DNA of 64,000 bases from Denitrovibrio sp. (GCA_002869145.1 PKTM01000012.1:62001-126000); one strand, 5' to 3'. Counted from the first letter of the stretch, positions 13,870 through 37,535 are shown. Notes: generated by a model not told the origin, from the sequence alone. Program-made: numbers and translations.

Positions 13870-13878
13870 GGCACTAAC

Positions 13879-15830: not shown

Positions 15831-16095
15831 TCAAAATCTTAACTTTGCTAAAATGTCTAATTTCGACCTTACAGACTCAACAAAGAGAGAAATAGCCAAT
15901 GTAACAGATGAATGGCCTACTTCATCAGGTAAGACACAATATCAGAGGTTCTTATACGGCAAAGACCTTACATACAGACAGGCAGTACTCGCTAAATGTG
16001 CCGAATGCTGCGGAGGATATGTTGACGGTAGAGGAGATTGTAAAGCTACAAAATGTCCTTTATATCCCCTTATGCCATACAGAGACAAAGACTAA
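15817..16095 (+). CDS. Small Cys-rich phage/island protein, probably zinc-binding
   Basis: The 92-aa product (start at MKHINQNL chosen because GAGGAG precedes it; an upstream in-frame ATG at 15778 lies inside alpA). The C-terminus has CAECCGGYVDGRGDCKATKC followed by PLYPLMPYR, a pattern seen in small hypothetical proteins of prophages. The six cysteines suggest a zinc site. Function unknown. Confidence 0.7.
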   Translation: MKHINQNLNFAKMSNFDLTDSTKREIANVTDEWPTSSGKTQYQRFLYGKDLTYRQAVLAKCAECCGGYVDGRGDCKATKCPLYPLMPYRDKD

Positions 16096-16347
16096 CGTAA
16101 GATATTGCTATAGCTATACTTATTTAAGCCTGAATAATACATAATTGAAATAAACAAACAGCAGATTTTCTTATATTTTCACTATTTTAGCATTTAGGGT
16201 GTCTTAGGTTAAACATAGCAGTTTGTATTTAATCCCATCAACTTATAAAATCGTAGCATTTAATTACAGTACTAATTTAATAGTAACAGCACAAGTTTGT
16301 ACTGAAGGCATCTATGCCTTACGTAAAAAACAAATAGGTATAAAATA

Positions 16348-16719
16348 ATGAGTAGAAAACCAGTATATAACAATAAGGCTGTAGTAACTCACAGCAATCA
16401 TAAGTTTAAATGTAAAATATCTAATACAGAAGCTCTTGAGGCAATGGGAATTCTCAAACCTAATGCCTTTAAGCTTTTGATATATTATTACACACGCTCA
16501 ACTAACTGGGAGTTTAATGATGCAGAAATAGCTGAAAAGCTGAATATTAAACCAAGCACCGTACCTATTCTCAGAAATGAATTAATTAAAGCAGGATATT
16601 TGCTGATCAAAAAAGGCAAGATTCATAATTATTTTATTGGTAAAAAAGCCATAGAAAATTGGCTAAAAAACAGGACTAATCCAGAAGCTATAAATCAGCT
16701 AAAAAATGTCCCAGTTTAA
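16348..16719 (+). CDS. Winged-helix DNA-binding protein of the element
   Basis: The 123-aa protein contains a helix-turn-helix/winged-helix core (GILKPNAFKLLIYYYTRSTNWEFNDAEIAEKLNIKPSTVPILRNELIKAGYLLIKKG). It resembles the N-terminal domains of plasmid replication or island regulatory proteins; specific function not recognised. Upstream, 16096-16347 shows no gene. Downstream is a long non-coding region. Confidence 0.65.
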   Translation: MSRKPVYNNKAVVTHSNHKFKCKISNTEALEAMGILKPNAFKLLIYYYTRSTNWEFNDAEIAEKLNIKPSTVPILRNELIKAGYLLIKKGKIHNYFIGKKAIENWLKNRTNPEAINQLKNVPV

Positions 16720-16898
16720 ACTAAATTTAAGCATCATTATCAAAATTTACACTTTATATAAGCATATAAAAAGTAGTTTAAACCATCTGTATTTTAACAT
16801 AAACTACTAATAAATAAGCATACTGCCTTTTTGTATAATATATAATTATAATAGAGGCTCTCCCCAGAGAGTCTATATTATAATGGGATACCTATTCG

Positions 16899-16964
16899 AA
16901 GCTTTGAAAACCGTAAGAAGTTACGTAGCGAAGCGGAGTAACTCTGGAGGTTCTTCATAAGCTT
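16899..16964 (+). ncRNA. Candidate structured RNA (three-tier stem)
   Basis: Nested pairs are visible: AAGCTT/AAGCTT (16899-16904 with 16959-16964), TGAA/TTCA (16905-16908 with 16954-16957), AACC/GGTT (16909-16912 with 16949-16952) and an apical AGTTAC/GTAACT (16919-16924 with 16938-16943). Such layered complementarity is unlikely by chance in AT-rich DNA. It could work as RNA on either strand, or as a DNA hairpin of an origin. No family recognised. Confidence 0.4.
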
Positions 16965-17443
16965 AAGAATGGTGATACCATACTTATGCCTAGTGCAACG
17001 GTAACATTCATAATAAATTTAACTAAAATTTCAATTGTCTGTTTTAATGTCTTAAAGCATTGTTCATTTGCTAGATAGGGCAAGTACTTGCAAGAAAATT
17101 TAAATACTGCTAGAAGCTCTATTTTAAGCTCTCTACAGCCTTACAATGCAAATATCAATGTAATTTACATTGTATTTACTCTAAGAGAGTAAGCTCTACT
17201 GAGTAGTTCTGAAGATTGCTTGCTGAATGAAGCAAGATATTCATATATATACAGTGCAACGTACATCGCTATTAAATACAAGTAAGAAAACAACCTATAA
17301 CTTACACCCTCTTTACATTGCATCTAAGAGGCTCTGCAACAAAATATATTCTACCAGAAGGTCAATGCCCTCAAAGACATATACATGCCTTCAGAAAGCC
17401 AATCTAAGGCTTCCTGTGAGCTTAAAACAGTATTAAAAAAAGA

Positions 17444-17469
17444 AAGCCCTACCAATAAAGGTAAGGCTT
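17444..17469 (-). terminator. Terminator after the ArdC-like gene
   Basis: AAGCC(C)TACC pairs with GGTA(A)GGCTT around a 6-nt loop; on the minus strand it is followed by a T-rich run (17434-17443), 14 bp after the stop codon. Confidence 0.75.
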
Positions 17470-17483
17470 AAAGTTGTCGATCA

Positions 17484-18311
17484 TTACGAAGCTTGCATGG
17501 ATATTTTATCGTCCAGCTCTATAGCCGATATGATCTCCTTTGCTGTTTGATACGCTATGTCTACTGAATCCATTATCTGGTCAACAGAGCCTTTACCCCA
17601 ACCTGTTAAATAACCGAAGCTGTAACTGCTGGAGTCTATTCCAAAATGTTCAGAGACAATATATGCAGTCATCTCAGCTTCAACTTCTTTTACACTTTTC
17701 GGCTTATCATTGTTACCGACATGGCTAAGTTGACAGTGAGCGACTTCATGAATCAGAGTCTTAAGCTTCTGTTCTTCGCTCTTAGAATCATTCAGGACAA
17801 TGATTTTTCCGTCAGTGAATCCTCCTAGTGCAGACTTAAGACTCTGTTGGATAATTTCGTAATCTTTGCTGAACATTGAAATAAACCTGTTGAATAGCTC
17901 TGTATGGCTTCCAAAGTCACTTACTATTGAAGGGACACTTTCCCCTTCTGTCTGGCTGATATCGAATACAGGCACTGTTATGAAGCCAGAGAGGTATTTC
18001 TTTTCAGGTTCTTTTTCATTACCTAAAAGTTGGCTCTCTTGCTCTGTAGATTTAATTTTCTTGAATGTCGGAGCAAAGATCATTATAGCCTTCTCGCCTT
18101 TACGAACTTGTCTGCCTAGTTCTTGCCATTTGCGATAGCCAGCCACATGAGATGCTTCTGGATTATGCTGATAAATGAGCAGTGAGTTGTAGAATGAATA
18201 CTGATGCAGTTTCGATACGAATGACAGGTACTGCTGAAATGTACCGCTATTGATAATGTTCTTGAGACCTTCCCTGATAATACCTGTTAGTTCGGATTTT
18301 TCTTTGTACAT
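17484..18311 (-). CDS. ArdC-like antirestriction protein / zinc metallopeptidase
   Basis: The 275-aa protein has an ArdC-type ssDNA-binding N-domain (FVSKLHQYSFYNSLLIYQHNPEASHVAGYRKWQELGRQVRKGEKAIMI) and a C-terminal metallopeptidase region with LIHEVAHCQLSH (HExxH, about residue 190) and a downstream Glu-rich EVEAEMTAYIV. ArdC proteins of mobile elements protect incoming DNA from restriction and are thought to bind single strands. GGAGGTGATTC lies directly upstream of the ATG. It is the first minus-strand cargo gene from the left. Confidence 0.85.
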   Translation of the reverse strand: MYKEKSELTGIIREGLKNIINSGTFQQYLSFVSKLHQYSFYNSLLIYQHNPEASHVAGYRKWQELGRQVRKGEKAIMIFAPTFKKIKSTEQESQLLGNEKEPEKKYLSGFITVPVFDISQTEGESVPSIVSDFGSHTELFNRFISMFSKDYEIIQQSLKSALGGFTDGKIIVLNDSKSEEQKLKTLIHEVAHCQLSHVGNNDKPKSVKEVEAEMTAYIVSEHFGIDSSSYSFGYLTGWGKGSVDQIMDSVDIAYQTAKEIISAIELDDKISMQAS

Positions 18312-18474
18312 GAATCACCTCCACACCACTAAAGAGTATGGTCAGTGATGTTAAGAACGAAAATGACACCCATGCCAATACTGACTAGGGGGGAGGTCTT
18401 GTTTTTCGTGTAAATTTTGAGATGTAGTAATGGTGTCAGGAGATTTTAATTTTCAGTACGGAATTAAAGAAAAT

Positions 18475-18503
18475 AAAGGAGCCTCTCTTTGAAAGACTCC
18501 TTT
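18475..18503 (-). terminator. Terminator of the 18.6-24.0 kb minus-strand cluster
   Basis: AAAGGAG (18475-18481) pairs with CTCCTTT (18497-18503). On the minus strand the stem is followed by TTTATTTTCTTT. It lies about 100 bp past the stop of the last gene of the cluster; the rest of 18312-18604 shows no gene. Confidence 0.65.
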
Positions 18504-18604
18504 GTAAATTTTATATATACTTTTTACTGCCAATCTGCAATGCAGGCAGGATTACAACTATACGCAAATAGTTTGACAGGCTCTTTCTATATTGGATATT
18601 ATTT

Positions 18605-19105
18605 TCATCTAAATCTATTACAAATGCTTCTTACACTATCTCTATCCTCATTTGATCCATTCCATTTTTCTATTTGAGTTTTAGTCCATTCATATCCGTT
18701 AGGACATCTAGCAGAAACAAGCCTACCCTGTAAAAAAAATAACTCCTTATCTAAATTTCCATTTTCGAGAAAATATTTGGTAATTCCTTCTTGTCTACCT
18801 TGTTCAAAAGTTGATTCAAGTCGAATATTACCATTATTATAATAAGCTTTTTTAACTCCATGATCTTTTCCGTCTTTAGAAGAAAATTCTCCGACAAGAA
18901 TACCTTTTTGATGTAGGCATATGTTTCCATTTATAAGATAATTATTTTTATCTAAGTAAAGCACGTCAATATATTGGACACCTTCTTTTGTATAATTTTT
19001 CTTATACATAGCTTTGGAATCAACGTTCATCTCATAGTCACACTTTGAGTGTGCAGTTATATTAATAATCAATGATATAAATAATATTGCTAACATTTTT
19101 CTCAT
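18605..19105 (-). CDS. Secreted MORN/YwqK-like repeat protein
   Basis: The 166-aa product has a signal peptide (RKMLAILFISLIINITAHS) and repeat units of the YwqK/MORN-2 type: GVKKAYYNNGNIRLESTFEQGRQEGITKYFLENGNLDKELFF. The family consists of beta-hairpin repeats in secreted or membrane proteins, often annotated as antitoxins, without a firm function. A longer cytoplasmic-side relative lies at 21179-22510 in the same element. Confidence 0.7.
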   Translation of the reverse strand: MRKMLAILFISLIINITAHSKCDYEMNVDSKAMYKKNYTKEGVQYIDVLYLDKNNYLINGNICLHQKGILVGEFSSKDGKDHGVKKAYYNNGNIRLESTFEQGRQEGITKYFLENGNLDKELFFLQGRLVSARCPNGYEWTKTQIEKWNGSNEDRDSVRSICNRFR

Positions 19106-19132
19106 TTAGAAAACTCCTTGTGATTTATTGTT

Positions 19133-19813
19133 TTAAAATTCAATCTGCATTTCTTCTGTAACATACATTGTAGGTTTCCCTTTGTATGACTTTACGCTCC
19201 CCCTAACACAAACAGTTTTGCCCGTTAACGAATTAAGATTGTATGTAAATTTATACGCATCTCTGCCCCATATAACAACACTAAACAACTGGTTAGGATA
19301 AGTATTACCAAAATTCAGAAAAACAGGCCTTCCTTTAGCTTTAGAAAAATATACACTTGCGACATTAGAACATGTCTTGACATAGCTCCCCACATATTCA
19401 TGCAAATCCTTAAGTTTTACTATTTTAATTTTTTCTTTCATATGGGCAGACGGTGGCATAATCGTGCACTTGTAACTTTGCTCACTACTTCCTGACTTAA
19501 ACATTAGATAAAGCATACTGTGACTTCTATAAAATTGAATTCCTACTGCCCCAGCTTCGTAGTAAGAGTATAATGAAGTATCCATATTGGGATTGTGTTT
19601 ATAAAGTATAAGACTATCACCTGCTGAACCATTTTCAGGTATAGCAAGTAATTCATTTGTGTTTGTTTCAAAAAAAATAATAGTTTTACCATCAGGAGTG
19701 TTTTCATCACAGATAGCAGTAAACTTAGATATTATATTGTATTCAGAGTATTGATTTGCAAAAACAGAGCATGCAATCAATAATAACACTAATAATTTCA
19801 TAACTAGTCCCAT
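19133..19813 (-). CDS. Exported OB-fold protein
   Basis: The 226-aa product starts with a signal peptide (VMKLLVLLLIACSVFA). The C-terminal about 90 residues form an OB-fold-like domain: LHEYVGSYVKTCSNVASVYF ... GRPVFLNFGNTYPNQLFSVVIWG ... LTGKTVCVRGSVKSYKGKPTMYV, as seen in exported proteins fused to nucleases. The middle has a Cys-bearing beta-rich domain of unknown type. GAGAGGGG precedes the ATG at 19813; the Met five codons later is an alternative. Confidence 0.7.
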   Translation of the reverse strand: MGLVMKLLVLLLIACSVFANQYSEYNIISKFTAICDENTPDGKTIIFFETNTNELLAIPENGSAGDSLILYKHNPNMDTSLYSYYEAGAVGIQFYRSHSMLYLMFKSGSSEQSYKCTIMPPSAHMKEKIKIVKLKDLHEYVGSYVKTCSNVASVYFSKAKGRPVFLNFGNTYPNQLFSVVIWGRDAYKFTYNLNSLTGKTVCVRGSVKSYKGKPTMYVTEEMQIEF

Positions 19814-19918
19814 AAGTAACCCCTCTCTTTCATTAAATCCTAATAGTCTATTTTCACATAAATAAGGGTAAATTTTATGTGTTAATTAAATTTTTCATCT
19901 AATATGATTAATTTAGCA

Positions 19919-20332
19919 TTATTCAGCATTCCTAGTGCCTCTACAATTCGGAAATTGGCTACATCCCCAAAAATTTTTACCCGCATACTTGCCCTGTTTT
20001 GCTGTTCTTTTTACCATTTTTGAATTACAAATTGGACATGCAGGACTTTTATTATATATATTATCCAAATAATTTGTTTCTTGAATTTGCCTGTGTTGAC
20101 TATTTCTAGTAACTTCTACAAGCTCACGCTTGTCTTTATTTTGGTTAGATTTAATAAAGATATATGTCAACACTAAAGAAATAACAAAAGTATGAGGCAA
20201 TGCTGCTATAATACAATATGATTTAAAACAAGCTCCAAAAAGCACAACTTGATTAACTACAAGTGTTATTATCCAGATTACAAAAAAAACACCAAAATTT
20301 TCTTTTACAGATTTTAACATAATTATTACCAC
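19919..20332 (-). CDS. Membrane protein with topoisomerase-type zinc finger
   Basis: The 137-aa protein has two hydrophobic segments (VFFVIWIITLVVNQVVLFGA and ALPHTFVISLVLTYIFI) and a C-terminal zf-C4 domain CPICNSKMVKRTAKQGKYAGKNFWGCSQFPNCRGTRN, the zinc ribbon found in topoisomerase I C-termini. It overlaps the SNase gene by 7 bp. Role unknown; a membrane-associated nucleic-acid binding protein fits its SNase and OB-fold neighbours. Confidence 0.7.
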   Translation of the reverse strand: MVIIMLKSVKENFGVFFVIWIITLVVNQVVLFGACFKSYCIIAALPHTFVISLVLTYIFIKSNQNKDKRELVEVTRNSQHRQIQETNYLDNIYNKSPACPICNSKMVKRTAKQGKYAGKNFWGCSQFPNCRGTRNAE

Positions 20333-20763
20333 TCAGCTTTTTTACCTCCAGTATACACTTTGCCGAGTTTGTTTTCAATTAACAAGCTTCCCAAGCATTT
20401 CCCGTCAATAAAGACATTAGCAACAATTCTAAAATACTTCCCCCTTTGAACGTTTCTGAGCTCTATAACTTTACCAAATTTTAGTTTCTCAACAGTAAAC
20501 TGCTTAGCTTGTTGAGCCAGAGCTTTAATCTCTGGACGTTTATCTCTCATTTCAGGTGTATCAACACCTGCTACTCTGATAGCTATTCTGTTACCTATTA
20601 GCGGATGAACTCCTTCTATATTACACCTGAAAGTATCACCGTCATATACAGATGTGACCTCTTTACAAATTAAAGTTCCGTAATTTACTGAGTCAGATGA
20701 TTCAGCAAAACAAAAACTGAAACTTGTCTGAAAGAGCAAAAATATACATACTATAAACTTCAT
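20326..20763 (-). CDS. Exported thermonuclease-like (SNase) protein
   Basis: The 145-aa product has a signal peptide ending near FCFAES and a staphylococcal-nuclease OB-fold: VTSVYDGDTFRCNIEG, IAIRVAGVDTPE (catalytic Arg and Glu), then RGKYFRIVANVFIDGKCLGSLLIENKLG. Calcium-dependent cleavage of DNA or RNA outside the cytoplasm is the family activity. The usual DxYGR segment is changed to GKYFR, with the Arg kept. In plasmids and islands such nucleases often accompany transfer or SSB genes, as here. Confidence 0.85.
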   Translation of the reverse strand: MKFIVCIFLLFQTSFSFCFAESSDSVNYGTLICKEVTSVYDGDTFRCNIEGVHPLIGNRIAIRVAGVDTPEMRDKRPEIKALAQQAKQFTVEKLKFGKVIELRNVQRGKYFRIVANVFIDGKCLGSLLIENKLGKVYTGGKKAEW

Positions 20764-20771
20764 TCTGTCAC

Positions 20772-21170
20772 CTAGAAAGGCAAATCTTCATCGTTTGTAT
20801 TGTCTGTGTCTTCTGGTGGAAAACTTGTGTCACTTTCAACTGCCTTGGGCTTAGACACAAGCTGAACATTCTCAGCAACAATCTCATGTTTTGATTTTTT
20901 TGTACCTTCTTGTTCCCACTGCTTATAGTTCAGCCTTCCTTCTATCAATACAGACATACCCTTTGAAACATATTCTCCGCAGAATTCTGCTGTTCTACCG
21001 AATGTAACAATATCAATAAAGCAAACATCTTCCTTCTGACCAGTACTTTTACGGTATCTGCTTACCGCTAATCCGAACTTAGCGATATATAAGTTTTTAT
21101 CTGGAATGTATGAAACCTCAGGGTCTCTTGTCAAATTTCCTAGTAAAATACATTTGTTTAAAAATCCCAC
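20772..21170 (-). CDS. ssb: Single-stranded DNA-binding protein
   Basis: The 132-aa protein begins MGFLNKCILLGNLTRDPEVSYIP, with FGLAVSRYR, CFIDIVTFGRTAEFCGEYVSKGMSVLIEGRLNYKQWE, and ends in DEDLPF, the acidic C-terminal tip that recruits repair and replication proteins. It is an element-borne SSB, probably acting with the ArdC-like and AAA proteins during replication or transfer. Confidence 0.96.
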   Translation of the reverse strand: MGFLNKCILLGNLTRDPEVSYIPDKNLYIAKFGLAVSRYRKSTGQKEDVCFIDIVTFGRTAEFCGEYVSKGMSVLIEGRLNYKQWEQEGTKKSKHEIVAENVQLVSKPKAVESDTSFPPEDTDNTNDEDLPF

Positions 21171-21178
21171 AGCACACC

Positions 21179-22510
21179 CTAAAATGTTTTGCTTGAAAGA
21201 GGTTCTCCATTTGCAAATATGACCTCTCTTTTCACCAGACCTGTTTCATGAAATTCTCTGGCAACACCATCAACAACTCCATCAACATAAGGTGTTTCAC
21301 ACCTTAGTGTTCCATCCTCGTAATATTGTTTGGCTAATCCATTTATTCTATTCTGATTATACATAAATTTACTTTTGAGCAAACCATTGCTAAAAAATTC
21401 TTTCATAACTCCTTCTGCTTTCCCTAGGCTAAACTGCCCTTCAGTCTTAAGCTCTCCATTAATATAGTACTCTCTTGAGATTCCATCCAAAACTCCGTTG
21501 ACATAAGGAGCTTCAGCTTTGATATTTCCATCTTCATAGTATGATTGAAATACCCCATCAATTGTTCCATCACTAAAAGGAATCTTTTCTTTAATTTGTC
21601 CGTTAATATGATACGTGAGAGAGATACCATTAAATGGTTCTCCTAAGTAAAATTGTATCCCATCGATTAGCTCAAGCTTGTCATGATCGCAAATAACATT
21701 TTTGTCTTTATTACCTGTGTTCTCTTCAAACTCTTCATCAGCCACTTCTATAATCCAATCCTTTAAAAATTCATCTAATTCTTTATTTACTTCATCGGAA
21801 ATTTCATTATTACTACCTGAACACATATCAGTCTCTGATAGATCATCAGTGTAGCTTGAATTCAAAGTTAACATATGTGAAGGGGTCTCTTTTTCATAAT
21901 AATTTAAAATGTCATTTTCATACTCATCAATACTTACCGATTCATCATCGAATTCATCAACATCTTCAAAAATATCTTTATCTACTTGGCTATGAACTTC
22001 GAAAACTTTCCACTTTTCCCCTGCATTTAGCACAGTTGGAATAAATTCTATGTCATCTGAAAATAGATTATCCTGAAAATTATAAATATTTGCGTTTAAG
22101 AATTTTTCATGTGTTTTAATGTCAATCAAAACTTTTTCTGGTAAGTATCCATTAGACTCTTTGTATTCGTACAAGAAGTCTTGAAGTCCAACAATTAAAT
22201 CTTCTATTTCACGAGCCTTACTATTGACTATCTCTGCCTTATGATGAATATCAGCGATAGCCAAAGCCATTCTAACATTCCATGGTGAATTCATATGTGG
22301 CGATCCATGTTGTCCTAATAAAGTAGCAAAGTGTTTAACCTCATCTATTTCACCAAGAACTATTCGATTGTATGAGTCAAAAGGTACACCAAGCTCTGTA
22401 CATAGTGCTCTTATATCTGATCCATTCTGTTCATTTCTTGCTCTATTAGCCCTATCAGCAAAAACTTTCAAAATTATGAAAAAAACAATAATTGCAATTA
22501 TCCATCCCAA
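21179..22510 (-). CDS. Membrane-anchored MORN/YwqK repeat protein
   Basis: The 443-aa protein starts with a membrane span (GWIIAIIVFFIILKVFA). The middle is acidic and unrecognised. The C-terminal about 150 residues contain at least five repeats of the pattern YYEDGxxKxExPYxNGxxDGxxREYY. It is a larger relative of 18605-19105. The ATG is 9 nt downstream of the upstream gene region, and the ssb gene follows by 8 bp. The function of this repeat family in islands is not known. Confidence 0.65.
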   Translation of the reverse strand: MGWIIAIIVFFIILKVFADRANRARNEQNGSDIRALCTELGVPFDSYNRIVLGEIDEVKHFATLLGQHGSPHMNSPWNVRMALAIADIHHKAEIVNSKAREIEDLIVGLQDFLYEYKESNGYLPEKVLIDIKTHEKFLNANIYNFQDNLFSDDIEFIPTVLNAGEKWKVFEVHSQVDKDIFEDVDEFDDESVSIDEYENDILNYYEKETPSHMLTLNSSYTDDLSETDMCSGSNNEISDEVNKELDEFLKDWIIEVADEEFEENTGNKDKNVICDHDKLELIDGIQFYLGEPFNGISLTYHINGQIKEKIPFSDGTIDGVFQSYYEDGNIKAEAPYVNGVLDGISREYYINGELKTEGQFSLGKAEGVMKEFFSNGLLKSKFMYNQNRINGLAKQYYEDGTLRCETPYVDGVVDGVAREFHETGLVKREVIFANGEPLSSKTF

Positions 22511-22538
22511 AGCGTATTCTCCTCTGTGTTTGCCATGG

Positions 22539-22904
22539 TTATATCTTATTTATTTTTCTCATGAATGCATCAGCTAGATGAGTAGCATTATCTGTATAGA
22601 TCATTGCTTTCTCTTTATAACCACTTTCTATGATGTTGATAACAACATCATCATTACCTATCATGTCTCTAAATGTTACACATCTTGCACCAGTTTCACT
22701 AAAATCATCTTCAGCACCTTTAGCTAAGGCATAATTTCTATATCTTTTATACGGCTTTTTTGCAAATATAGACTTACCCCTATTATATCTATAAGCTTCA
22801 GTAATTTCTTCTTTTATAAACGCATTACCAATATCTCCATTTGTCAATATTTTCCATGCGATTATTGTAATGAATAATAATCCTATCAGAATAACGTATC
22901 CCAT
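22539..22904 (-). CDS. Small membrane-anchored protein of unknown function
   Basis: The 121-aa product has one N-terminal hydrophobic helix (GYVILIGLLFITIIAWKIL) followed by a charged domain (GAEDDFSETGARCVTFRDMIGNDDVVINIIESGYKEKAMIYTDNATHLADAFM). Not recognised. It lies upstream of the MORN protein gene on the same strand and may share its transcript. Confidence 0.55.
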   Translation of the reverse strand: MGYVILIGLLFITIIAWKILTNGDIGNAFIKEEITEAYRYNRGKSIFAKKPYKRYRNYALAKGAEDDFSETGARCVTFRDMIGNDDVVINIIESGYKEKAMIYTDNATHLADAFMRKINKI

Positions 22905-22995
22905 ATTTTCACCTTTATTCCGTCTCAGTTAATTAAATTCTCACTAAGTCTATTGTAGCATCTTTATCTTACCTTTACTGTAAAATTTGAACTCT

Positions 22996-23280
22996 TCAAT
23001 ATTCAGTGTCTAAATCTGGATAATGATAACAAAGCTCCTGTCCAAGAATCACATTACCTCCCATCTTCTCACAGCTTGATCTTGCAGCTCCATCAGCAGC
23101 TATTGGACCGATCATAGCTACAGCAAATATTTGACCACCAGTGAAATCTATTCTATCTATTTTATTACAGCCTTTAAGGTCTGTAACTGTTTGAGCTTTA
23201 AGCACTGCTCTGTTTGATGTTGTAAGACAGCCAGATAAGAACATCGTTAATATTACAAGTATTATTAATTTGAATTTCAT
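22996..23280 (-). CDS. Small lipoprotein
   Basis: The 94-aa product has a lipoprotein signal peptide with lipobox FLSGC at residues 15-19. The short mature part contains GGQIFAVAMIGPIAADGAARSSCEKMGGNVI, with paired Cys residues. Not recognised beyond being envelope-attached. Confidence 0.6.
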   Translation of the reverse strand: MKFKLIILVILTMFLSGCLTTSNRAVLKAQTVTDLKGCNKIDRIDFTGGQIFAVAMIGPIAADGAARSSCEKMGGNVILGQELCYHYPDLDTEY

Positions 23281-23371
23281 ATCTGCACCTATGATTTTTT
23301 AGTTTTACTAAAACGATCATAGCACCTTGATATTAAATAGAGGTCGCTTAGAAAGCGACATTAGATTTTAA

Positions 23372-23974
23372 TTACCCACCAAGCACAGGCAAATCATACG
23401 AGAAGAGAACATCATTAATTTCATAGATATCATAAATGCCTTTCATTATGAAATATTCGATTATCACATCAAATAATAAGCTACGTGAAAGAGAGAATCC
23501 TGCACGTTTAAGAAGGTCTCGTGTTTCATCAAGCGAAAGCTCTAGTGCAATAGCCAAAGCAATAGCTGTTCTTTTACTGGGGATATATCTTTGCTCGTTG
23601 CGTATCTTAGAAAACAATCTACGGTCAATATTGGCTTTTTTATACACATCAACAGGATTTATCCCCTTATCATCGATATACTTCATAAGAGTTGCAGAAA
23701 AAGAACTCTCAAGAAGTGCAGCAATGCTTCTTTCTGTGTCTCTTTTTCTTTTTTCTTCACTTACAGGATCAGAATAGTATGAGTGACGCTCTTTTAACCA
23801 TGATTCCCCTGATTCTCTTTTCTCACGTTCTTCTGCTTCAGTCCTGTCAGCAAATGCTCTGATTCTGCCGAAGAAGCCTTTATAATTCTTATTACACTTG
23901 AATTCATAGTGATTATTTATAAAGATGTTAATTTCATCAAACAGTGGGTTTGAAGGAGTTTTTTTTCTCACCAA
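23372..23974 (-). CDS. Helix-turn-helix protein of the macro-domain-associated type
   Basis: The 200-aa protein has a charged N-terminal region and a C-terminal domain (DKGINPVDVYKKANIDRRLFSKIRNEQRYIPSKRTAIALAIALELSLDETRDLLKRAGFSLSRSLLFDVIIEYFI...YDIYEINDVLFSYDLPVLG). The same XRE-like helical domain is common at the C-terminus of bacterial proteins carrying a macro or kinase-like domain; here it stands without one. Probably a DNA-binding regulator of the element. Confidence 0.65.
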   Translation of the reverse strand: MVRKKTPSNPLFDEINIFINNHYEFKCNKNYKGFFGRIRAFADRTEAEEREKRESGESWLKERHSYYSDPVSEEKRKRDTERSIAALLESSFSATLMKYIDDKGINPVDVYKKANIDRRLFSKIRNEQRYIPSKRTAIALAIALELSLDETRDLLKRAGFSLSRSLLFDVIIEYFIMKGIYDIYEINDVLFSYDLPVLGG

Positions 23975-24072
23975 AGTTCCCCTTATAGCTCTATGTGTAA
24001 ATATAAAGTCAATAAGAATTATAACTGTGATAAGATGAATTCATCAACTAGAGTTTATTACGAGGTTAATTA

Positions 24073-24306
24073 ATGACAAAAGCAATCTGTTTTAACTGTG
24101 GAAGTATAAAACTCGGTTCACTTACAGCTTGTGAGAACTGCAACGTAGAACCAGAGAGCAAACATGATCTTGCTGTTTCTATTCACCTATCTGATCACTT
24201 GATGAGTAATGAAGAGCTCACTGAGATCAGCAAAGCGATAAAAGAAGGCGTAAAGGTCAAGCTTAGCGATGAAACTGTAGAAAAGTGGAGTAAGATGTTT
24301 GAGTGA
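24073..24306 (+). CDS. Small zinc-ribbon protein
   Basis: The 77-aa product has an N-terminal four-Cys knuckle (CFNCGSIKLGSLTACENC) followed by a helical domain (DLAVSIHLSDHLMSNEELTEISKAIKEGVKVKLSDETVEKW). Transcribed toward the right end of the element. Function unknown. Confidence 0.6.
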   Translation: MTKAICFNCGSIKLGSLTACENCNVEPESKHDLAVSIHLSDHLMSNEELTEISKAIKEGVKVKLSDETVEKWSKMFE

Positions 24307-24371
24307 GCGTTAATATCTGCTATAATTTGATTGCACCATCAGGAATACAATCGTAACAAAATAGCCAAAGC

Positions 24372-24388
24372 GGGTAATATTTGGGTAA
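24372..24388 (+). promoter_or_regulatory. Right arm-type integrase binding repeat
   Basis: GGGTAATAT-T-TGGGTAA matches the left repeat at 12604-12620 at 16 of 17 positions and in the same orientation. It lies 54 bp inside attR. A nearby 7-bp inverted repeat (CGCTAG-TCTTAAC-CTAGCG) lies between it and attR. Confidence 0.65.
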
Positions 24389-24442
24389 TATTAAATCAGT
24401 CGCTAGTCTTAACCTAGCGATATCAACAACTTGCTTAATATA

Positions 24443-24466
24443 TTCGATTCCCACCGCCTCCATTTT
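24443..24466. repeat. attR: ssrA 3'-end attachment site (24-bp direct repeat, right copy)
   Basis: Identical over 24 bp to 12476-12499. It is not part of a functional tmRNA here and marks the right end of the element. Confidence 0.92.
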
Positions 24467-24681
24467 TATCTTTTTTATTATCAATGACTTATATTTCAAA
24501 CAGGCCGTTTTCGTAATTTTTTCGTATGGGATTTTCCTTGTTTATCAATGACTTACAAGAGGCATATTTCGTGAAAATATTAACTGCTTTATTATAAACA
24601 ACTTAAGCTGGTATTTCGGTCAATTTCACACTCAACCCCATCTGGCGAGCTAAATAAATTCTCTGACAGCGAATTTATTTC
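24467..24681. other. Non-coding flank with direct and inverted repeats
   Basis: No gene is visible. A 14-bp direct repeat TTATCAATGACTTA occurs at 24478-24491 and 24542-24555. A perfect 10-bp inverted repeat, AAATAAATTC (24652-24661) facing GAATTTATTT (24671-24680), ends immediately before the promoter of the structured RNA. It may insulate that locus. Confidence 0.5.
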
Positions 24682-24710
24682 TTGACTTATACATTAATAT
24701 CTACTACCTT
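24682..24710 (+). promoter_or_regulatory. Putative promoter of the retron RNA
   Basis: TTGACT (24682-24687), a 17-bp spacer and TACCTT (24705-24710); the start would be near 24717, just before the structured segment. Confidence 0.5.
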
Positions 24711-24716
24711 TCATAT

Positions 24717-24970
24717 AGGACATGGTTGGTATTATGCCATCGAAAGTGGGCTTCGGCTCGTGGAATGCTATCATGCGTTCTAACTTTTCCGGGGTACATG
24801 TTGTGTCGTACGGTGCGGTTGGCATTGCACGATCACCACGATAGATCTCTGGCCCTGCAGGCTGGCATAGCCTGCAGGAAATAACACTAACTGACCTTTT
24901 TTTTGTAACCTCTTCCTTTTTGGCATAACAGCACCACTAGGTGCTGAATAAAGGAGGTGACACATGTCTC
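24717..24970 (+). ncRNA. Candidate retron msr-msd RNA
   Basis: The stretch is non-coding, more G+C-rich than its flanks, and full of helices: TGGTATTATGCCA-type hairpin (24725-24740), GGGC-UUCG-GCUC hairpin (24748-24759), an imperfect stem CTATCATG/CACGATAG enclosing about 60 nt (24766-24844), a perfect 10-bp stem CCTGCAGGCT/AGCCTGCAGG (24854-24878), and CAGCACC/GGTGCTG (24929-24946). GGACATG near 24718 can pair with CATGTCT at 24963-24969, a possible a1/a2 end pair. A T8 run lies at 24897. It directly precedes an operon encoding a retron-type RT, where retrons carry their msr-msd. The exact ends and branching G are not determined. Confidence 0.55.
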
Positions 24971-25080
24971 ACAGAAAGAAGATGTCAGACAAAGTAAAGT
25001 CATTCCTATGGAGACACCGTAAACTCATTCGCAAGATAGTTTTATGGTTAGCCGGGATGATTTATGACTTATTTGACTAG
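24964..25080 (+). CDS. 38-aa basic amphipathic small protein
   Basis: ATG at 24964 follows an excellent ribosome-binding site, AAAGGAGGTGACAC. The product MSHRKKMSDKVKSFLWRHRK continues with LIRKIVLWLAGMIYDLFD, so it has a strongly basic N-half (12 Lys/Arg among the first 24 residues) and a hydrophobic, Trp-containing C-half. It resembles small membrane-active or type I toxin-like peptides in composition only. It lies between the structured RNA and the XRE gene, and its start overlaps the possible a2 segment. Confidence 0.55.
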   Translation: MSHRKKMSDKVKSFLWRHRKLIRKIVLWLAGMIYDLFD

Positions 25081-25111
25081 AGTTAGTGTTTTTTTTCATA
25101 AAGGTGTTGAA

Positions 25112-25405
25112 ATGATAGGTGAAGCACTCCGGCTCATAAGAGTCCTAAACGATAAAAAATTAATCGACGTTTCGAATGACTTAAACATATCCTCAGGATA
25201 TCTTTCTGAACTTGAGAAAGACAAGAAAAAACCAAGCCTAGACACTATTGAGAAACTCGCTTCGTATTATGAATGTAAGCCTTCCGCAATTCTCCTCTTT
25301 TCTGAAAAGTTAGAAGACGACTCATTAAAATCTAAAATAAAGACATCTATTCAGAAAAAACTGCTTGCGTTTATGGACATCGTAGAACAGGGCAAAAATG
25401 TCTAA
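25112..25405 (+). CDS. XRE-family regulator of the retron locus
   Basis: The 97-aa protein is almost only an XRE helix-turn-helix: GEALRLIRVLNDKKLIDVSNDLNISSGYLSELEKDKKKPSLDTIEKLASYYECKPSAIL. The start at 25112 is chosen for AAGGTG upstream; an in-frame ATG at 25064 would add 16 residues. The stop overlaps the RT start by 8 nt (ATGTCTAA), implying translational coupling. Small HTH proteins encoded next to the RT occur in HTH-associated retrons (type VI in the published classification, as I recall it). Confidence 0.85.
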   Translation: MIGEALRLIRVLNDKKLIDVSNDLNISSGYLSELEKDKKKPSLDTIEKLASYYECKPSAILLFSEKLEDDSLKSKIKTSIQKKLLAFMDIVEQGKNV

Positions 25406-26300
25406 TAAGCAATACAATATACATCAAAGCCCGCTATATAAATTAAATTCCAAATCAAAGTTATCCTCTATCTTGCATATAGACAACCTTGCAAATCTAT
25501 TGAGAGATGGTCATTACAACCGTTTTGAAATGAACGGTCGTCAAATTGAAAGCCCCTGTAAGGAACTGAAAAGAGTCCACAAAAGAGTCTTGAAACTATT
25601 ATCTAGAATTAATACTCCAGACTATCTGATATCTGGCAAAAAAGGTTTGTCATATGTCGACAATGCCAAGGTACATACCAGAAGGTGCAATCTTGTAAAA
25701 ATGGATATCAAGAAGTTCTACCCCAGTTCTAAAAAAGAATACGTTTTTAGATTATTCCATTATAAGTTTCGCATGGCGGAAGATGTTGCATGGATACTAA
25801 CGGAGCTTTTAACATGTGATGGACATATTCCAACTGGCAGCCCTGTAAGCCAGATTTTGGCATTTATGATCTTTGCAGACACATTCGAAGAAATAAATAA
25901 CCTCGCAATTACCCACGGGTGCTGTTTCACTCTTTACGTAGATGACATTACTATTTCATCTACTGGGAATATCCCGAGAAAATTAATTTATGCCATACGT
26001 AATGAGCTAAAAAAAGTAAACCTCAACCTCTCCGGCAAAAAAACAAGATTTTATAGTCTTAATAAAACGAAATGTGTGACAGGCTGCGTTATCACCCCTG
26101 ATGGAGAACTAAGAATTCCTAATAAGCTTCATCAGAAAATCCATGAAAAATCTACAATGCTTAATAAAGAGGGGTTATCGCCACACGATCACCAAGTACT
26201 CTTTGGATTGCTTAATGCTGCTCAGCAAATCCAGAAAAGCACTTTCCCTTCGCTATACAGGGAAGCTAAACGTAATTTCAAAATAAGTGTGGCACAATAA
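25398..26300 (+). CDS. Retron-type reverse transcriptase
   Basis: The 300-aa RT has the seven-finger/palm order without maturase or endonuclease domains. Diagnostic retron features are DNAKVH in region X (NAxxH, about 89-94), the catalytic YVDDITIS (about 180) and KCVTGCVI in region Y (VTG, about 227). Also LVKMDIKKFYPS (RT2/3), HIPTGSPVSQILAFMIF (RT4) and NLSGKKTRF (RT6). It would make msDNA from the adjoining structured RNA. Coupled upstream to the XRE gene; the SEC-C gene follows 34 bp after its stop. Confidence 0.9.
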   Translation: MSNKQYNIHQSPLYKLNSKSKLSSILHIDNLANLLRDGHYNRFEMNGRQIESPCKELKRVHKRVLKLLSRINTPDYLISGKKGLSYVDNAKVHTRRCNLVKMDIKKFYPSSKKEYVFRLFHYKFRMAEDVAWILTELLTCDGHIPTGSPVSQILAFMIFADTFEEINNLAITHGCCFTLYVDDITISSTGNIPRKLIYAIRNELKKVNLNLSGKKTRFYSLNKTKCVTGCVITPDGELRIPNKLHQKIHEKSTMLNKEGLSPHDHQVLFGLLNAAQQIQKSTFPSLYREAKRNFKISVAQ

Positions 26301-26334
26301 AAAAAATCGCACGACATACATAGAGAGAATCCCC

Positions 26335-27792
26335 ATGAAAACTAACAAATCTACTGGTGTCACTCCAACTGAACAGCTATTATATAAGCTTTGCGAAGAT
26401 ACTTTCCTTAAATTATGGAGTTACCCAAACCCTGTGAAAAATGATGGAAAAGAACTGTGTGATGTCATCGCAGTATTCGAAAACCACGTATTTGTTTTCT
26501 TTGATCGAGAAAGCAGGAAATTTGACAATCCGGATAAAGCAGTAGATATACAGTGGGACAGATGGCTAAAGGAAGTCATTGACAAGCAAACCAAAACAGC
26601 CCTTGGAGCCGAAAGATACCTAAAGAATGGCGGTGAAATATTTCTGGATGATAATTGCACCATTCCATTTCCCATAAAACTACCCAACAAAGAAACTCTT
26701 ATCGTACATAAAATTATTGTTGCTCATGGGGCAAAAGAAGCGTGTGAAAAATTTTTCGGAGAAAATTCTGCAGGCAGTCTTGTTATTTGCTATGGGGATA
26801 AAGAAAAGTCTCCAAAATTATTTCCATTCATGCTGACACTCAGTAGAGAGAATCCTGTACACGTATTTGATACATATAATTTGGACATTATACTTAATGA
26901 ACTTGATACGTTTTATGATTTTTCAACATACCTCAGAGAAAAAGAGGAAGCCATCTCAAGATACGATACAATAATGTATTGCGGCGAAGAAGACCTACTT
27001 GCACATTACCTGTTAAATTGGGATGAAAATACTGATAGAAATATTATCGGTACTCTAGATACAGAAATTAATTTTCTCAGCATCATGGAAGGAGAATGGC
27101 AAGATCTCATCAAAAGAGAAGATTTTCAAAAGAAAAAAGAAGAGGATAAGGACTCATACATATGGGATGAACTGCTACAACAAACAAGCCAAAACGCCAT
27201 TGATGGTACACTAATTGGGCAAGAGAATATTATAACTGGAAAAAACCCTTTAGTGGAAATGGCAAAAGAACCCAGATCATTCAGAACTCTCCTTGGGAAA
27301 AATTTAATACGTGTTATTGATGAGTTCCCAGAATCAGACAATAAAAGCTCACGCCTCTTGTCAGTTATCAGTTCTTTCTACTCAGACACTTTATATGTAA
27401 TTTTACAGTTAAAACCAAACCATGAAATTAACTATGAGACTGAGTACAGACCTGTTCGCAGAAAAATGCTTGCAATTGCATGCGGTGTAGCAAAAAACAG
27501 ATTCCCAGAAATCTCTAAGATCATCGGGATAACTTTTGACTCTCCAAAATATACTAAAATTAACTCTGAGGACTTTATATTATTAGATTGTTCCGATTGG
27601 GGACAAAAAGATGAAGAATTTTATAATGAAAAAAACAAAGATTTTGGATTCTTTCAGAATATAAAAGACAAGAAAAGTGATTTTTTTGAATTACCTCACT
27701 CTCCAGAAAAAAAGCAAATAAAAATAGGGCGAAATGAAAAATGTCCTTGTGGATCAGGACTAAAATATAAAAAATGCTGCAATAAAAAATAA
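26335..27792 (+). CDS. SEC-C motif protein with predicted nuclease-like N-terminus (candidate retron effector)
   Basis: The 485-aa protein ends in [20 protein letters not shown], the SecA C-terminal-type (SEC-C) zinc motif. The N-terminal about 100 residues ([47 protein letters not shown], then [10 protein letters not shown]) have the Glu ... Asp ... hydrophobic-strand pattern of PD-(D/E)XK-like domains, but a clean ExK is not visible, so the nuclease call is tentative. The start MKTNKSTG is preferred over one 16 codons upstream that overlaps the RT. Its position as third gene of the operon fits the toxic effector slot of retron defence systems. Confidence 0.6.
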
Positions 27793-28024: not shown

Positions 28025-29662
28025 ATGACTCTTCACCACAGACTGATCATGGATGTAAAGCTTAATAAGAATATTCTCACACGCAATCTTTATCCGGATA
28101 TAACAGAACTGCTCCAGAGCTCATTTAATATAAACGAGCAAGAATCAAGAACACTGCTTTTCATGCTCGCCTATCATATAAAAACTGACAACACATGCAA
28201 CATGTACCGTATCAAAGACGAACATAAGCTATCATCCGACCAGTACTGCCTCCTCATGGACAATGCTCTATCACTGATGAGTAAAAACCTGATATCTCAT
28301 GACGGATACAGCCGAAACAGGCACCGAAACAGGCATTTGGAAATTTATCCTGATTTCGAATTCAACCCTTCTCTTATAGCATTCGTCCTTAAAGGAACAC
28401 TCAATATGGAAGGTATTGATTACAATGACTTATACTCTATCATTGATTATTACGAACGGCTGGTGGAAGACAGGGATAATGAAAAACTATCAACAAGCGA
28501 ATTCTTTGATAAAGTAGAGGACATTGCTGAGAGTTGCCACTAAAGTATTCGCTTCAGCAGTTTCATTAAAAGGCTTAATAATGATGAAAAATCACTTCTA
28601 CTGTACCTTATGCTCAAAAGGTTGAGCGGTGACGATGATATATGGTTCTCCACCTACATTAAAGAGATATATGAGTCTATAAAAATTGCAGGCAAATTCA
28701 GGGAGAAATTTGTCAAAGGGAAACTGAAGCTTCAAAACGAGAATTATATTGACAATGACGAAGATAAGAACTGGTTCCGTGCTGATGTATGCGTCAAGCT
28801 AACAAAGAAGTTTATTACAACTTATCTGGACACATTTGTAAATGATAAAAACATTAAATTTGAAAGCAAGTTTTTGAAAGTTGTATCACACGGAGAAATA
28901 AATCCCACACTGGTATTTGAAGGTCACCTTCAAAAAGAGATTAATACAATATCAAAAACCGTTGGTAAAACTAGACTCAAACAACTCAGGAAAAGGCTAA
29001 AAGATAATAAAATGCCTGTTGGAGTCACCTGTCTGTTACACGGTGCCCCTGGAACAGGCAAAACAGCTTCAGTATACGAGATCGCCTCTCAAACAAAGAG
29101 AGATGTTCTACATGTAGACATCTCCTCAATCCGCAGCATGTGGGTAGGGGAAAGTGAAAAGAACATCAAAAAAATCTTTGAAGATTATTACGAAGCAAAA
29201 AAGGCTTATGACAATATTCCTATCCTTCTGTTTAATGAGGCTGATGCCCTTATTAGCAAACGAGTGGAGGCCAGCAGAAGTGTTGACCATATGAACAACT
29301 CAATGCAGAACATCCTGCTGGAAGAACTGGAGCGTTTCGACGGGATACTCTTTGCAACCACTAACCTGACAATGAATATGGATGACGCTTTCTCCAGACG
29401 GTTCCTTTATAAGGTCTGCTTCCCTGTTCCTGATGCCTCAGCCAGAGCAAAAATATGGAAGCAGAAGATACCTGCTCTCTCAGCTAAAGACGCTGATGTT
29501 TTAAGCCGTTATCAGGTGTCCGGCGGGCAGATTGAAAATGTCAGCCGGAAAATGCTTATAGATTCTATGCTGCACAACAGCAAACAAAATCTCAACGATA
29601 TAGAAACCCTTATAAAAAGTGAAATGTCGTTCAAACAAACAGAAAAAATAGTGGGGTTTTAA
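28025..29662 (+). pseudogene. AAA+ ATPase gene interrupted by one in-frame TAA
   Basis: The frames 28025-28543 (172 aa) and 28610-29662 (350 aa from an internal Met) lie in one frame, separated by TAA at 28541-28543. The codons between (SIRFSSFIKRLNNDEKSLLL) run smoothly into YLMLKRLSGDDDI, so the ancestral protein was about 546 aa. The C-terminal half is a CDC48-like AAA domain: Walker A GAPGTGKTAS (about codon 340), ILLFNEADALI (Walker B with Asn for Asp, about 400), sensor ATTN and SRRFLYKV. The N-terminal half holds helical domains. The C-terminal frame may still be made by reinitiation. GGAGGTGCACA precedes the first ATG. Confidence 0.8.
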
Positions 29663-31183: not shown

Positions 31184-31984
31184 ATGACAAATTTTAAAGA
31201 CATGTTTCATCTTACAAAAGAGGAAGTCAGAGCAATACATCGCTGGCTGAGGCAAAAAAGATATGAAAGCAGCAGAGATACTTTCAAAATAATTTACGAG
31301 CCATGGCTTGACTCCATAAATGTTTCAGTATCACTAAATATAAACGGCAATACCGAATGGTTAGAATTTGATGGTTTTGAACGTGACACTGAAGCTGAGA
31401 TTAATACCTTGCAGCTTGGATCCCATAAACTCGAATTGGCAATATCAGCAGAACACTATTCTCCATTTATCCCAGTTTTACAGAAAAGTGTTGAAGCACA
31501 GGTGGAAGAAGATATTGAACATGTAACAACATTTGTATTTATAGTCTCAGAAGGTTTATGTGAAATTTATGTTGCCGGCACAAGGATCGGCACACACCCT
31601 CTAAAAAAAATTATTACTGATAGCAGCAAAGTGCGATTATGCTTCAGCAATCTCACCACGATTGAAAATCTTATTTTGTGTGAAGATATAGAAGCAAAAT
31701 GGATTGAAGAGAATATTCCGTATTTCTCTGCAGAAGATATGAAAGTTCTTGTGAAGCGCTTGGATATACTTGGGTATGAGGTTTACGGCATTGAATGCTG
31801 GAGTGAAAAGGATATGGGCTACTTCAAAACTTACGTTCAAGAATTGTACATGAACGAATATAATTCACCAGAAAAAGACTGGTTCGTTAATACTTACAAA
31901 CAGGTGCTTCAAGAATATGCTGAGAGGGTATTGTCTGATGAGCCCGATAATCCGCCAATATTCAATATTAGTATAGGAAGATAA
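31184..31984 (+). CDS. Unknown protein, first of two tandem paralogues
   Basis: The 266-aa product is not recognised. It shares with the next gene the blocks MFHLTKEEVRAIHRWLRQK, TLQLGSHKLEL, GLCEIYVAGTRIG, NLILCEDIEAKW, FSAEDMKVLVKRLDILGYEVYGIECWS and a C-terminal DEPDNPPIFNISIG. No membrane segment or signal peptide is visible. It lies directly behind a copy of the shared operator, so it is probably induced together with the defence genes. Confidence 0.7.
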   Translation: MTNFKDMFHLTKEEVRAIHRWLRQKRYESSRDTFKIIYEPWLDSINVSVSLNINGNTEWLEFDGFERDTEAEINTLQLGSHKLELAISAEHYSPFIPVLQKSVEAQVEEDIEHVTTFVFIVSEGLCEIYVAGTRIGTHPLKKIITDSSKVRLCFSNLTTIENLILCEDIEAKWIEENIPYFSAEDMKVLVKRLDILGYEVYGIECWSEKDMGYFKTYVQELYMNEYNSPEKDWFVNTYKQVLQEYAERVLSDEPDNPPIFNISIGR

Positions 31985-32009
31985 CGAACGAAAATTAATA
32001 TAGGACTTA

Positions 32010-32777
32010 ATGAGCAAACCTGCGAACATGTTTCACCTGACACAAAAAGAGGCTAGAGCAATATATTATTGGCTAAAGCGTAAAAATTATAAGACCGAGA
32101 CCAACAATACATTCAAAATCATTTTTGAGTCGCAGCAAAGTAATAAAAGTATCTTAGTTTTGATAACTCAAAATGGAATTACTAAACAACTGAAAGTTAA
32201 CATAGATTTAAATGACAGAGTAAAATCTATTGATACATTGCAACTAGGAAAACACATACTAGATTTATCAATAGATGAGAAATACCAGGCCGCAGTGAAT
32301 AATAACAATGAGTCAGGTTCATCGTTTGCTTTTGAGGTATCAAAAGGTATATGCGAAATATATGTATCAGATAGAAGCATTGGCAAATACCCACTGGCTG
32401 AGATAAGTAGACTGAAGATAAAACCTGCCTTTAGGTTAACCTATATGGAGAATCTGATTTTACTAAAAGACATAAAAGTTCAATGGCCTATACTTTATCA
32501 ATCCAGAGTCCCATTTTTTTTGGCAGAAGACATGGCTATTCTGGTTGAAAGACTTTATTTATACGGATACAAAGTGCATGGCATTGAATGCTGGAGCAGT
32601 AAAGATGTTGACTTTTTTGGGGTAGAAGTCTGGATGGATGGTACACCAGACGATGGTTGGTTTATAGATGGTTGGTTTATAGATGCTTATTATAGGCTGT
32701 TGCAAAAATATACCGAAATGGTTTTACCAGAAGAACCTGACAACCCACCGATGTTTGAATTGTCTGTATGTAAATAA
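32010..32777 (+). CDS. Unknown protein, second of two tandem paralogues
   Basis: The 255-aa paralogue of the preceding gene (MFHLTQKEARAIYYWLKRK, TLQLGKHILDL, FLAEDMAILVERLYLYGYKV, EEPDNPPMFELSV). A perfect 15-bp tandem duplication (32652-32666 and 32667-32681) duplicates five residues to give DGWFIDGWFIDAYY near the C-terminus. The gap to the upstream gene is 25 bp, so the two are one operon. Function unknown. Confidence 0.7.
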   Translation: MSKPANMFHLTQKEARAIYYWLKRKNYKTETNNTFKIIFESQQSNKSILVLITQNGITKQLKVNIDLNDRVKSIDTLQLGKHILDLSIDEKYQAAVNNNNESGSSFAFEVSKGICEIYVSDRSIGKYPLAEISRLKIKPAFRLTYMENLILLKDIKVQWPILYQSRVPFFLAEDMAILVERLYLYGYKVHGIECWSSKDVDFFGVEVWMDGTPDDGWFIDGWFIDAYYRLLQKYTEMVLPEEPDNPPMFELSVCK

Positions 32778-36179: not shown

Positions 36180-37535
36180 CTAATGAAAAATACTCGTAAG
36201 TTTACTGCATGCAATCGCATTAAGGTCTTTATTATTAAAAGAACTAGTAACATTAAAGGGAATAGCACATAACCGTAATGATTTTCCGTTGGTATCTTTA
36301 GTAGAGTACTCAAAATGCTCTAATGGTTCAGTAAAGTCCACAGTATACGGGTAAATAAGAAATAGGCAGACATCATTCTTGCTATTGCGTTCATACTTTT
36401 TACCATAGGCAAAAAGCTGATACATATCCGACTGAGAAATCAAATAGTTCTTTCTTTCAAGATTCTGGTCAATAAGCTTCCATTTTGTATCCAGCACTAC
36501 AACTCGCCCATCTTTTTCCATTACGATATCAGGCTTCAGCCGAAACTTACCAGTAGCTGTATGTTTATCAACTAAATAATGTTGTTTATCTTGAGTTTTC
36601 AAATGCCAATCTGAAAAATTATTTCTGATATATGCAGCAACATAATCTTCAAAAATCCTCTCCATTGGGAAAAGCAAAGCAAAAGCTATGTCAGTCCCTT
36701 TGTAATTTGTAAAAGTTTCATTTTGAAGAAATATCTTGCACCAGCTTAGAACTCTTTCGTAATCTACCATGCTGCGATCAGGTTTAACTTTAGCAAAATC
36801 ACTAATGATATTTTGTGAAGCTCTTACCTCATCAAAGACAAAAAGATACTCTGAGATGCTTTTCTGGTTTTTATATGATTTTGATTTCTTTGAAAGCATC
36901 ATCAGGGTTGATTTTATCAACCTGTTTTCTGGCCTGTCAGTAATATACTCATCATACTCCACAAAGAATCGTTCTTTGTGTATCAAATTTTTGTTTAAAT
37001 GATCCGTCCATTTAATCTTACCTTTCATAAAATTACAGTTTTCAGCTACAGCAACATAGTCGGACTTAATTCCCTTTTTTATCAGCACGCTGAGTTCATC
37101 CAAAAACATTGTGATAAAAATTTCTATCAATGGCATTTTACTAGACTTAAGATGAGCGAAATCTATTTGCTTATAAGGTGTGCTTTTTAGACAACGCAAC
37201 ATTTTAAGAAAAATTTCTCTGGTTTCATCTTCCTTGTTATCAAGACCATGAATTTTAGGAAGAATCTCTATGACAATTCCTGCTTTTGTCTCAATGACCC
37301 CTACATAATTTTGAGCAACAAGTACCTTTTGTTTTTTTCTACTCTGTAGTTTTAGAAACCTATCAGTGTCATCACTTGAAGAAAGGACAAAATTCTCTAA
37401 CTGTTCAAACGTATCTTCAGGTACAAAAACATTGCCATTATCGCTGTAACTCAGAAGATCGTTACCTTTCTCATCTTTTTTTCCATGTTTAGCAATGCTG
37501 ATATAGCTATATTCTTTAAGAACCAGGTGTTTCAT
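36180..37535 (-). CDS. mcrC: McrC subunit of a modification-dependent restriction system
   Basis: Nuclease partner of McrB; together they cut DNA bearing modified cytosines. The 451-aa protein has the McrC N-terminal region (VLVAQNYVGVIETKAGIVIEILPKI), YDEYITDRPENRLIKSTL in the middle and a C-terminal PD-(D/E)XK core, FRLKPDIVMEKDGRVVVLDTKWK (Asp about 348, DTK about 361). Its start overlaps the end of mcrB by 20 bp, implying coupling. Confidence 0.93.
   Translation of the reverse strand: MKHLVLKEYSYISIAKHGKKDEKGNDLLSYSDNGNVFVPEDTFEQLENFVLSSSDDTDRFLKLQSRKKQKVLVAQNYVGVIETKAGIVIEILPKIHGLDNKEDETREIFLKMLRCLKSTPYKQIDFAHLKSSKMPLIEIFITMFLDELSVLIKKGIKSDYVAVAENCNFMKGKIKWTDHLNKNLIHKERFFVEYDEYITDRPENRLIKSTLMMLSKKSKSYKNQKSISEYLFVFDEVRASQNIISDFAKVKPDRSMVDYERVLSWCKIFLQNETFTNYKGTDIAFALLFPMERIFEDYVAAYIRNNFSDWHLKTQDKQHYLVDKHTATGKFRLKPDIVMEKDGRVVVLDTKWKLIDQNLERKNYLISQSDMYQLFAYGKKYERNSKNDVCLFLIYPYTVDFTEPLEHFEYSTKDTNGKSLRLCAIPFNVTSSFNNKDLNAIACSKLTSIFH

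Follow-up and report, generated by a model that had tools for sequence, protein, structure and literature searches.

A retron-like operon lies within a 64,000-nucleotide stretch of DNA from Denitrovibrio sp. (GCA_002869145.1 PKTM01000012.1:62001-126000; hereafter the window, with positions counted from its first letter), and it raises a question: if the operon is a retron, which of its parts is the effector? A structured RNA is followed by an XRE gene, a reverse transcriptase (RT) gene and a gene for a SEC-C protein, collinear on one strand. The original prediction, made from the sequence by itself, had this layout right, including the coordinates and the 8-nt overlap of the HTH/XRE and RT genes. 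It took the SEC-C protein to be the effector, and that is where the present account departs from it.

Class and composition of the locus

The larger genes of the operon are these:
25112-25405, + strand: HTH/XRE gene, 97 aa, a proposed autoregulator (PADLOC HTH_VI, 6.1e-24; Pfam HTH_3)
25398-26300, + strand: retron RT gene, 300 aa (PADLOC RT_VI, 8.2e-84, 279 bits; Pfam RVT_1)
26335-27792, + strand: SEC-C gene, 485 aa, a neighbour rather than a recurrent part of the retron

Judged by its matches, the element is a type VI retron and belongs to a known class of bacterial elements directed against viruses: the two genes match the PADLOC RT_VI and HTH_VI models, Pfam agrees, and the alignment of the RT shows kinship with retron RTs of solved structure, Ec86 among them. 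The RT scores 279 bits with RT_VI and 135 bits with the next retron class in PADLOC. The motifs claimed for it (NAxxH, YVDD and VTG) are present, as NAKVH, YVDD and VTG, and in the alignment of relatives they are invariant or nearly so. The HTH/XRE gene stands directly 5' of the RT gene, overlapping it, as type VI prescribes, and the suspicion that the element belongs to the class of retrons with small HTH proteins proved correct, down to a homologous structured RNA upstream. To our knowledge, no large effector has been recognised in type VI retrons.

The locus shares its RT clade, HTH gene, gene order and upstream structured RNA with the type VI retrons of the Mestre et al. 2020 classification (PADLOC RT_VI plus HTH_VI). 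Type VI is described in PMC8541194, which concerns a Shewanella phage and cites that classification, as consisting of an RT, a DNA-binding protein and "small auxiliary proteins". The type VI element of that paper is linked there to short ORFs other than the kind considered below, with MuM16-1_p31 on the opposite strand. Hence neither type VI nor the presence of a small protein is new.

Relatives of the RT were gathered from plasmids and phages, and 80 further loci came from one profile scan of genome contigs. Seventy-two RT loci, the window included, have an HTH gene directly upstream, and 71 of these have enough upstream sequence for comparison; the non-redundant set comprises 59 loci, and the pairing tests below used a set of 50. 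The loci are mutually related, so all p-values given here are optimistic. A search of viral contigs by RT alone found only weak RT matches, with no HTH gene. At six loci (L053, L054, L060, L067, L076 and L119), a type VI-like RT lacks a recognised HTH gene and is preceded by a short ORF of cationic or membrane type.

The retron RNA and a small ORF behind it

The RNA at 24690-25112 folds better than its dinucleotide shuffles (z -5.85, 0/100), and the fold of 24705-24905 has a z of -3.58. A search of Rfam with the structured RNA gave no match, and it was therefore tested instead by comparison with relatives. Its parts are:
24732-24739, + strand: a1 arm, TTATGCCA, an inverted repeat whose homologous stem covaries in alphaproteobacteria, also placed by descriptor and model alignment
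24747-24782, + strand: two msr hairpins, TGGGC-TTCG-GCTCG and TGGAATGC...GCGTTCTA, with conserved GGA...UCU closing pairs, covariation and occurrence across phyla
24783-24907, + strand: predicted msd (template) region, with the CCTGCAGGCT hairpin at 24854-24878, from the fold, the inverted repeat and the position relative to a1/a2
24921-24928, + strand: a2 arm, TGGCATAA, inside the loop between anti-SD and SD (see below), from inverted repeat, covariation and descriptor

The alignment of alphaproteobacterial RNAs has as its consensus the a1/a2 stem, the two msr hairpins and a long msd hairpin, with compensatory changes in 18 of its 35 pairs. The covariance model built on it matches the right place in distant loci. 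It aligns end to end with 24728-24962 of the window, weakly (5.7 bits, E 0.0097 in a search of 521 nt), and it missed the window's own ncRNA in a wide search. A descriptor consisting of a1, hairpin 1, hairpin 2 with GGA...UCU, and a2 some 45-60 nt before the small ORF does better on real sequence than on shuffles in 54 of 59 loci (p 8e-8), whereas an unanchored search for complementarity of the a1/a2 kind gave no excess over shuffles. An upstream ncRNA with a1/a2 stem and msr hairpins, another feature of type VI, is thus found here, the score of the model on the window itself being weak. For the start of copying at a2, and for where the branching G lies, we rely on analogy with other retrons.

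A promoter had been claimed in front of the RNA, and the claim is half convincing:
24657-24675, + strand: candidate XRE operator, palindrome AATTCTCT-gac-AGCGAATT, just upstream of the -35
24682-24687, + strand: -35-like TTGACT of the putative ncRNA promoter, with a weak -10

The -35-like hexamer is there, but the -10 is poor, and a promoter scan did not list the putative ncRNA promoter at 24682. Many type VI loci, from different phyla, have the palindrome TTCGCTnnnAGCGAA in the corresponding position in front of the small ORF, and in many relatives a TTGAC-like hexamer follows it. We infer that the XRE protein represses the operon through this candidate operator. The notion that msDNA serves as a decoy for the XRE protein found no support, since half-site words cluster at the upstream operator and not in the msd.

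Between the ncRNA and the XRE gene lies an ORF that the original prediction overlooked:
24950-24958, + strand: Shine-Dalgarno (SD) of the small ORF, perfect, AAAGGAGGT, masked by the anti-SD arm
24964-25080, + strand: small toxin-like ORF and proposed effector, 38 aa, MSHRKKMSDKVKSFLWRHRKLIRKIVLWLAGMIYDLFD

An equivalent ORF, short, cationic and amphipathic, occupies the same spot in 71 of the 71 HTH-RT loci with enough upstream sequence, and in the window it answers to the small auxiliary protein that type VI is reported to have. These ORFs run from 32 to 75 aa, nearly always with ATG and a good SD, and leave 27-79 nt between their stop and the start of the HTH gene. Of the 59 non-redundant loci, 55 passed a strict test that asked for ATG, SD, charge and a hydrophobic C-terminal half. 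The same test was passed by 1.1% of shuffled upstream regions, by no reverse strand, and by a single one of 165 stretches taken from in front of other genes of these loci. The pN/pS calculated from close pairs is 0.46. In nearly all loci the peptide has a cationic N-terminus and an amphipathic helix, the sequence itself being variable; its median net charge is +8, and its amphipathicity exceeds that of shuffled peptides (p 1.6e-9). Comparison among loci thus shows that the small ORF codes for protein and that type VI loci carry it as a constant component.

Pfam and NCBIfam hold no family for it. Some records annotate it (Enterococcus, Serratia, Scytonema), but others leave it out, for example that of Shewanella phage MuM16-1 (L043, ORF at 3363-3509). 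In phage P2_2H1 (L039, 3250-3642), an annotated 130-aa "hypothetical protein" ends on the stop codon of the small ORF, and the call appears to have been extended too far, through the ncRNA.

Two helices around the small ORF

The leader and its flanks contain three further segments, which together with the SD form two predicted helices:
24877-24892, + strand: b1 arm, just 3' of the msd hairpin; pairs with b2 (pair probability 0.97)
24908-24919, + strand: anti-SD arm, ACCTCTTCCTTT, directly 5' of a2; pairs with the SD (pair probability 0.77)
25081-25096, + strand: b2 arm, AGTTAGTGTTTTTTTT, after the stop of the small ORF; pairs with b1 around the whole of the ORF

The first helix closes on the SD. 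Among the relatives, the mean probability that the SD is unpaired is 0.23, as against 0.40 with shuffled leaders (p 5e-9). The duplex of anti-SD with SD has an energy of -16.8 kcal/mol, compared with -13.6 for dinucleotide shuffles matched in composition (p 2e-11) and -12.8 for non-cognate pairs. The second helix encloses the ORF. The b1:b2 pairing stands at 22.1, compared with 18.0 for shuffles (p 6e-9) and 17.9 for non-cognate pairs, and exceeds a control stretch as well (p 8e-9); examples reach 17-19 bp. Since shared base composition can inflate tests of cognate against non-cognate partners, these were repeated against dinucleotide shuffles. The window taken singly shows modest pairing (b1:b2, p 0.049; anti-SD duplex, p 0.15), and the strength lies in the set of 50. 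Two loci, L044 and L084, are among the few without a clear lock on the SD. By these comparisons, the ribosome-binding site of the small ORF is masked by the anti-SD arm, and the ORF as a whole is further enclosed by the b1:b2 helix.

The anti-SD and b1 arms both fall between the msd hairpin and a2, and the a1:a2 stem interleaves with both locks, a pseudoknot topology. When the RNA upstream of about a2 was removed in silico, exposure of the SD rose from 0.23 to 0.46, with an increase in 40 of 50 loci (p 6e-8); the same cut takes the window from 0.22 to 0.57.

Effector, switch and their alternatives

Two traits of type I toxin-antitoxin systems are present: a masked ribosome-binding site in the toxin mRNA, according to the folding and duplex tests, and a short hydrophobic or amphipathic peptide, according to its sequence properties. 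As far as sequence can tell, the 38-aa ORF is a likelier retron effector than the SEC-C protein, and its peptide would, by analogy with type I toxins, damage the inner membrane. We consider it rather likely that the locus is a retron of type VI with a hidden, type-I-toxin-like peptide of 38 aa as its effector, coupled translationally and in cis to the retron RNA and autoregulated by the XRE protein.

How might such a system work? The two folds, anti-SD:SD and b1:b2, would hold translation of the peptide shut, and engagement of the RNA by the RT would control the lock, so that the state of the retron complex sets the translation of the peptide. Retron RTs (Eco1 and others) start copying at the 5' edge of a2. 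They use a 2'-OH as primer and depend on host RNase H1, which removes the template RNA, probably during synthesis (PMC8989520). With copying begun at a2 and RNase H1 acting on the template, reverse transcription would strip away both arms, anti-SD and b1, so that the SD is free on the 3' mRNA that is left. The complex of RT and msDNA might instead keep the toxin off until a phage disturbs the complex. The first direction, in which copying opens the lock, is slightly favoured over the second, in which the RT complex closes it, because copying would reach just these two arms before any other RNA. In either direction the outcome would be membrane damage and, by analogy, abortive infection. Bolder, and rather less likely than not, is the proposal that reverse transcription is itself the switch, with RT and RNase H1 removing the arms that shut the toxin mRNA, the template RNA acting as an antitoxin in cis, and its conversion into DNA serving as trigger. 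If copying does unlock the mRNA, constitutive synthesis of msDNA would be poisonous, and therefore transcriptional repression or some second control would be required.

The small peptide might instead be a toxin neutralised as a protein, by a complex of RT and msDNA (perhaps with the HTH protein) after the manner of tripartite retron toxin-antitoxin systems, the RNA folds merely lowering translation. Retrons usually work by having RT and RT-DNA sequester the effector (PMC12548924), and the HTH and RT genes are co-transcribed downstream of the small ORF. We nonetheless think this doubtful: two conserved locks whose 5' arms lie inside the predicted template favour control at the level of RNA, and with a peptide so short and so variable in sequence, specific binding by a protein is less obvious. 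Improbable, in our judgment, is that the small ORF encodes no toxin and serves as a leader peptide controlling HTH-RT expression or RNA folding. Its place between the ncRNA and the HTH-RT genes would suit a leader, as would the closeness of the b2 arm to the HTH ribosome-binding site, but what is conserved is the properties of the amino acids and not codons at particular positions, the pN/pS is 0.46, and type VI loci share no other effector.

That the SEC-C protein is a toxic effector held inactive by the RT-msDNA complex is very improbable, for all that its gene starts 34 nt after the RT stop on the same strand, its family occurs on plasmids, prophages and islands, and its N-terminus gives weak hints of a PD-(D/E)XK-like fold. 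No SEC-C relative was found at type VI loci or in the other 193 genomes searched (of the 194, only the window's own genome has one), and no RT was found beside the SEC-C homologues at 30 loci; the recurrent linkage by which the original prediction proposed to be judged is absent in both directions, which rules out SEC-C as a recurrent effector. Downstream genes at type VI loci are varied or missing, and no effector other than the small ORF is common to them. Likeness of the N-terminus to nucleases is weak at most: one homologue matches NERD at E 0.15; the AlphaFold model of the protein (pLDDT 82.6) finds no PDB match at E <= 0.001, and no nuclease fold can be assigned with confidence. The homologues, 28-48% identical, lie on many plasmids, in prophages or satellites, and in islands. 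The family (window 26335-27792, L131-L153; about 485 aa) has a conserved GKExCDLLVVF...FSDK near its N-terminus and is common on plasmids and prophage-like contigs.

The SEC-C gene is in a mobile region and is best read as an independent accessory or defence cargo gene that happens to follow the retron. A tmRNA gene at 12147-12495 is followed by an integrase gene at 12670-13869. The last 16 nt of the tmRNA gene recur as an exact copy at 24447-24462, the two bounding the integrase element, and 12496-24462 has the appearance of an integrated element carrying ssrA attachment sites; the retron begins just beyond the second copy. Just downstream of SEC-C, at 28610-29662, is an AAA ATPase near the PADLOC IetA and TRIP13 models, a possible defence gene. 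Two adjacent, similar ORFs (266 and 255 aa) at 31184-32777 appear to be a tandem duplication. On the - strand, by eye, 36180-42366 holds an McrBC-like pair (451 and 955 aa) with a 657-aa protein, consistent with a defence island, and 51680-55893 holds several tandem metallophosphoesterase-like ORFs, apparently paralogous.

Three groups of known systems bear comparison. The large-effector retrons (types I, II, III, IX and XII) likewise have an RT, of a fold related to Ec86 and others, and an msr-msd RNA, but type VI loci lack a shared large effector and offer a hidden peptide as candidate. Among type I toxin-antitoxin systems, the hok mRNA also has long-range pairing of its 5' and 3' parts. ZorO and Fst are toxins with ribosome-binding sites sequestered in cis (PMC8309996), and hok/Sok, zorO/orzO and Fst resemble the present locus in having a short cationic peptide of membrane type and an SD masked by RNA in cis (PMC8309996); here, by contrast, the arms of the lock sit in a retron template, and genes for RT and XRE proteins belong to the operon. 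In DRT2, reverse transcription triggered by phage makes a toxic gene and protein (PMC12039810), a precedent for an RT that switches on synthesis of a toxin; the present locus differs in carrying its ORF in the genome from the outset, in having an RT of the retron clade, and in the a1 and a2 of its ncRNA. The literature searched contained no description of the RNA locks, of their overlap with the template or of this small ORF, and the original 2020 paper and recent subscription papers or preprints may say more.

A constant, hidden, toxin-like ORF with two co-evolving locks anchored in the template would provide an effector for type VI retrons, and it would join two separate fields, those of retrons and of type I toxin-antitoxin RNAs. 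The nearest large gene is an unsafe guess for the effector of a retron, and annotation misses small ORFs inside retron leaders regarded as "non-coding". If it is true that reverse transcription is the switch, then the step that makes DNA would directly turn on translation of a membrane toxin.
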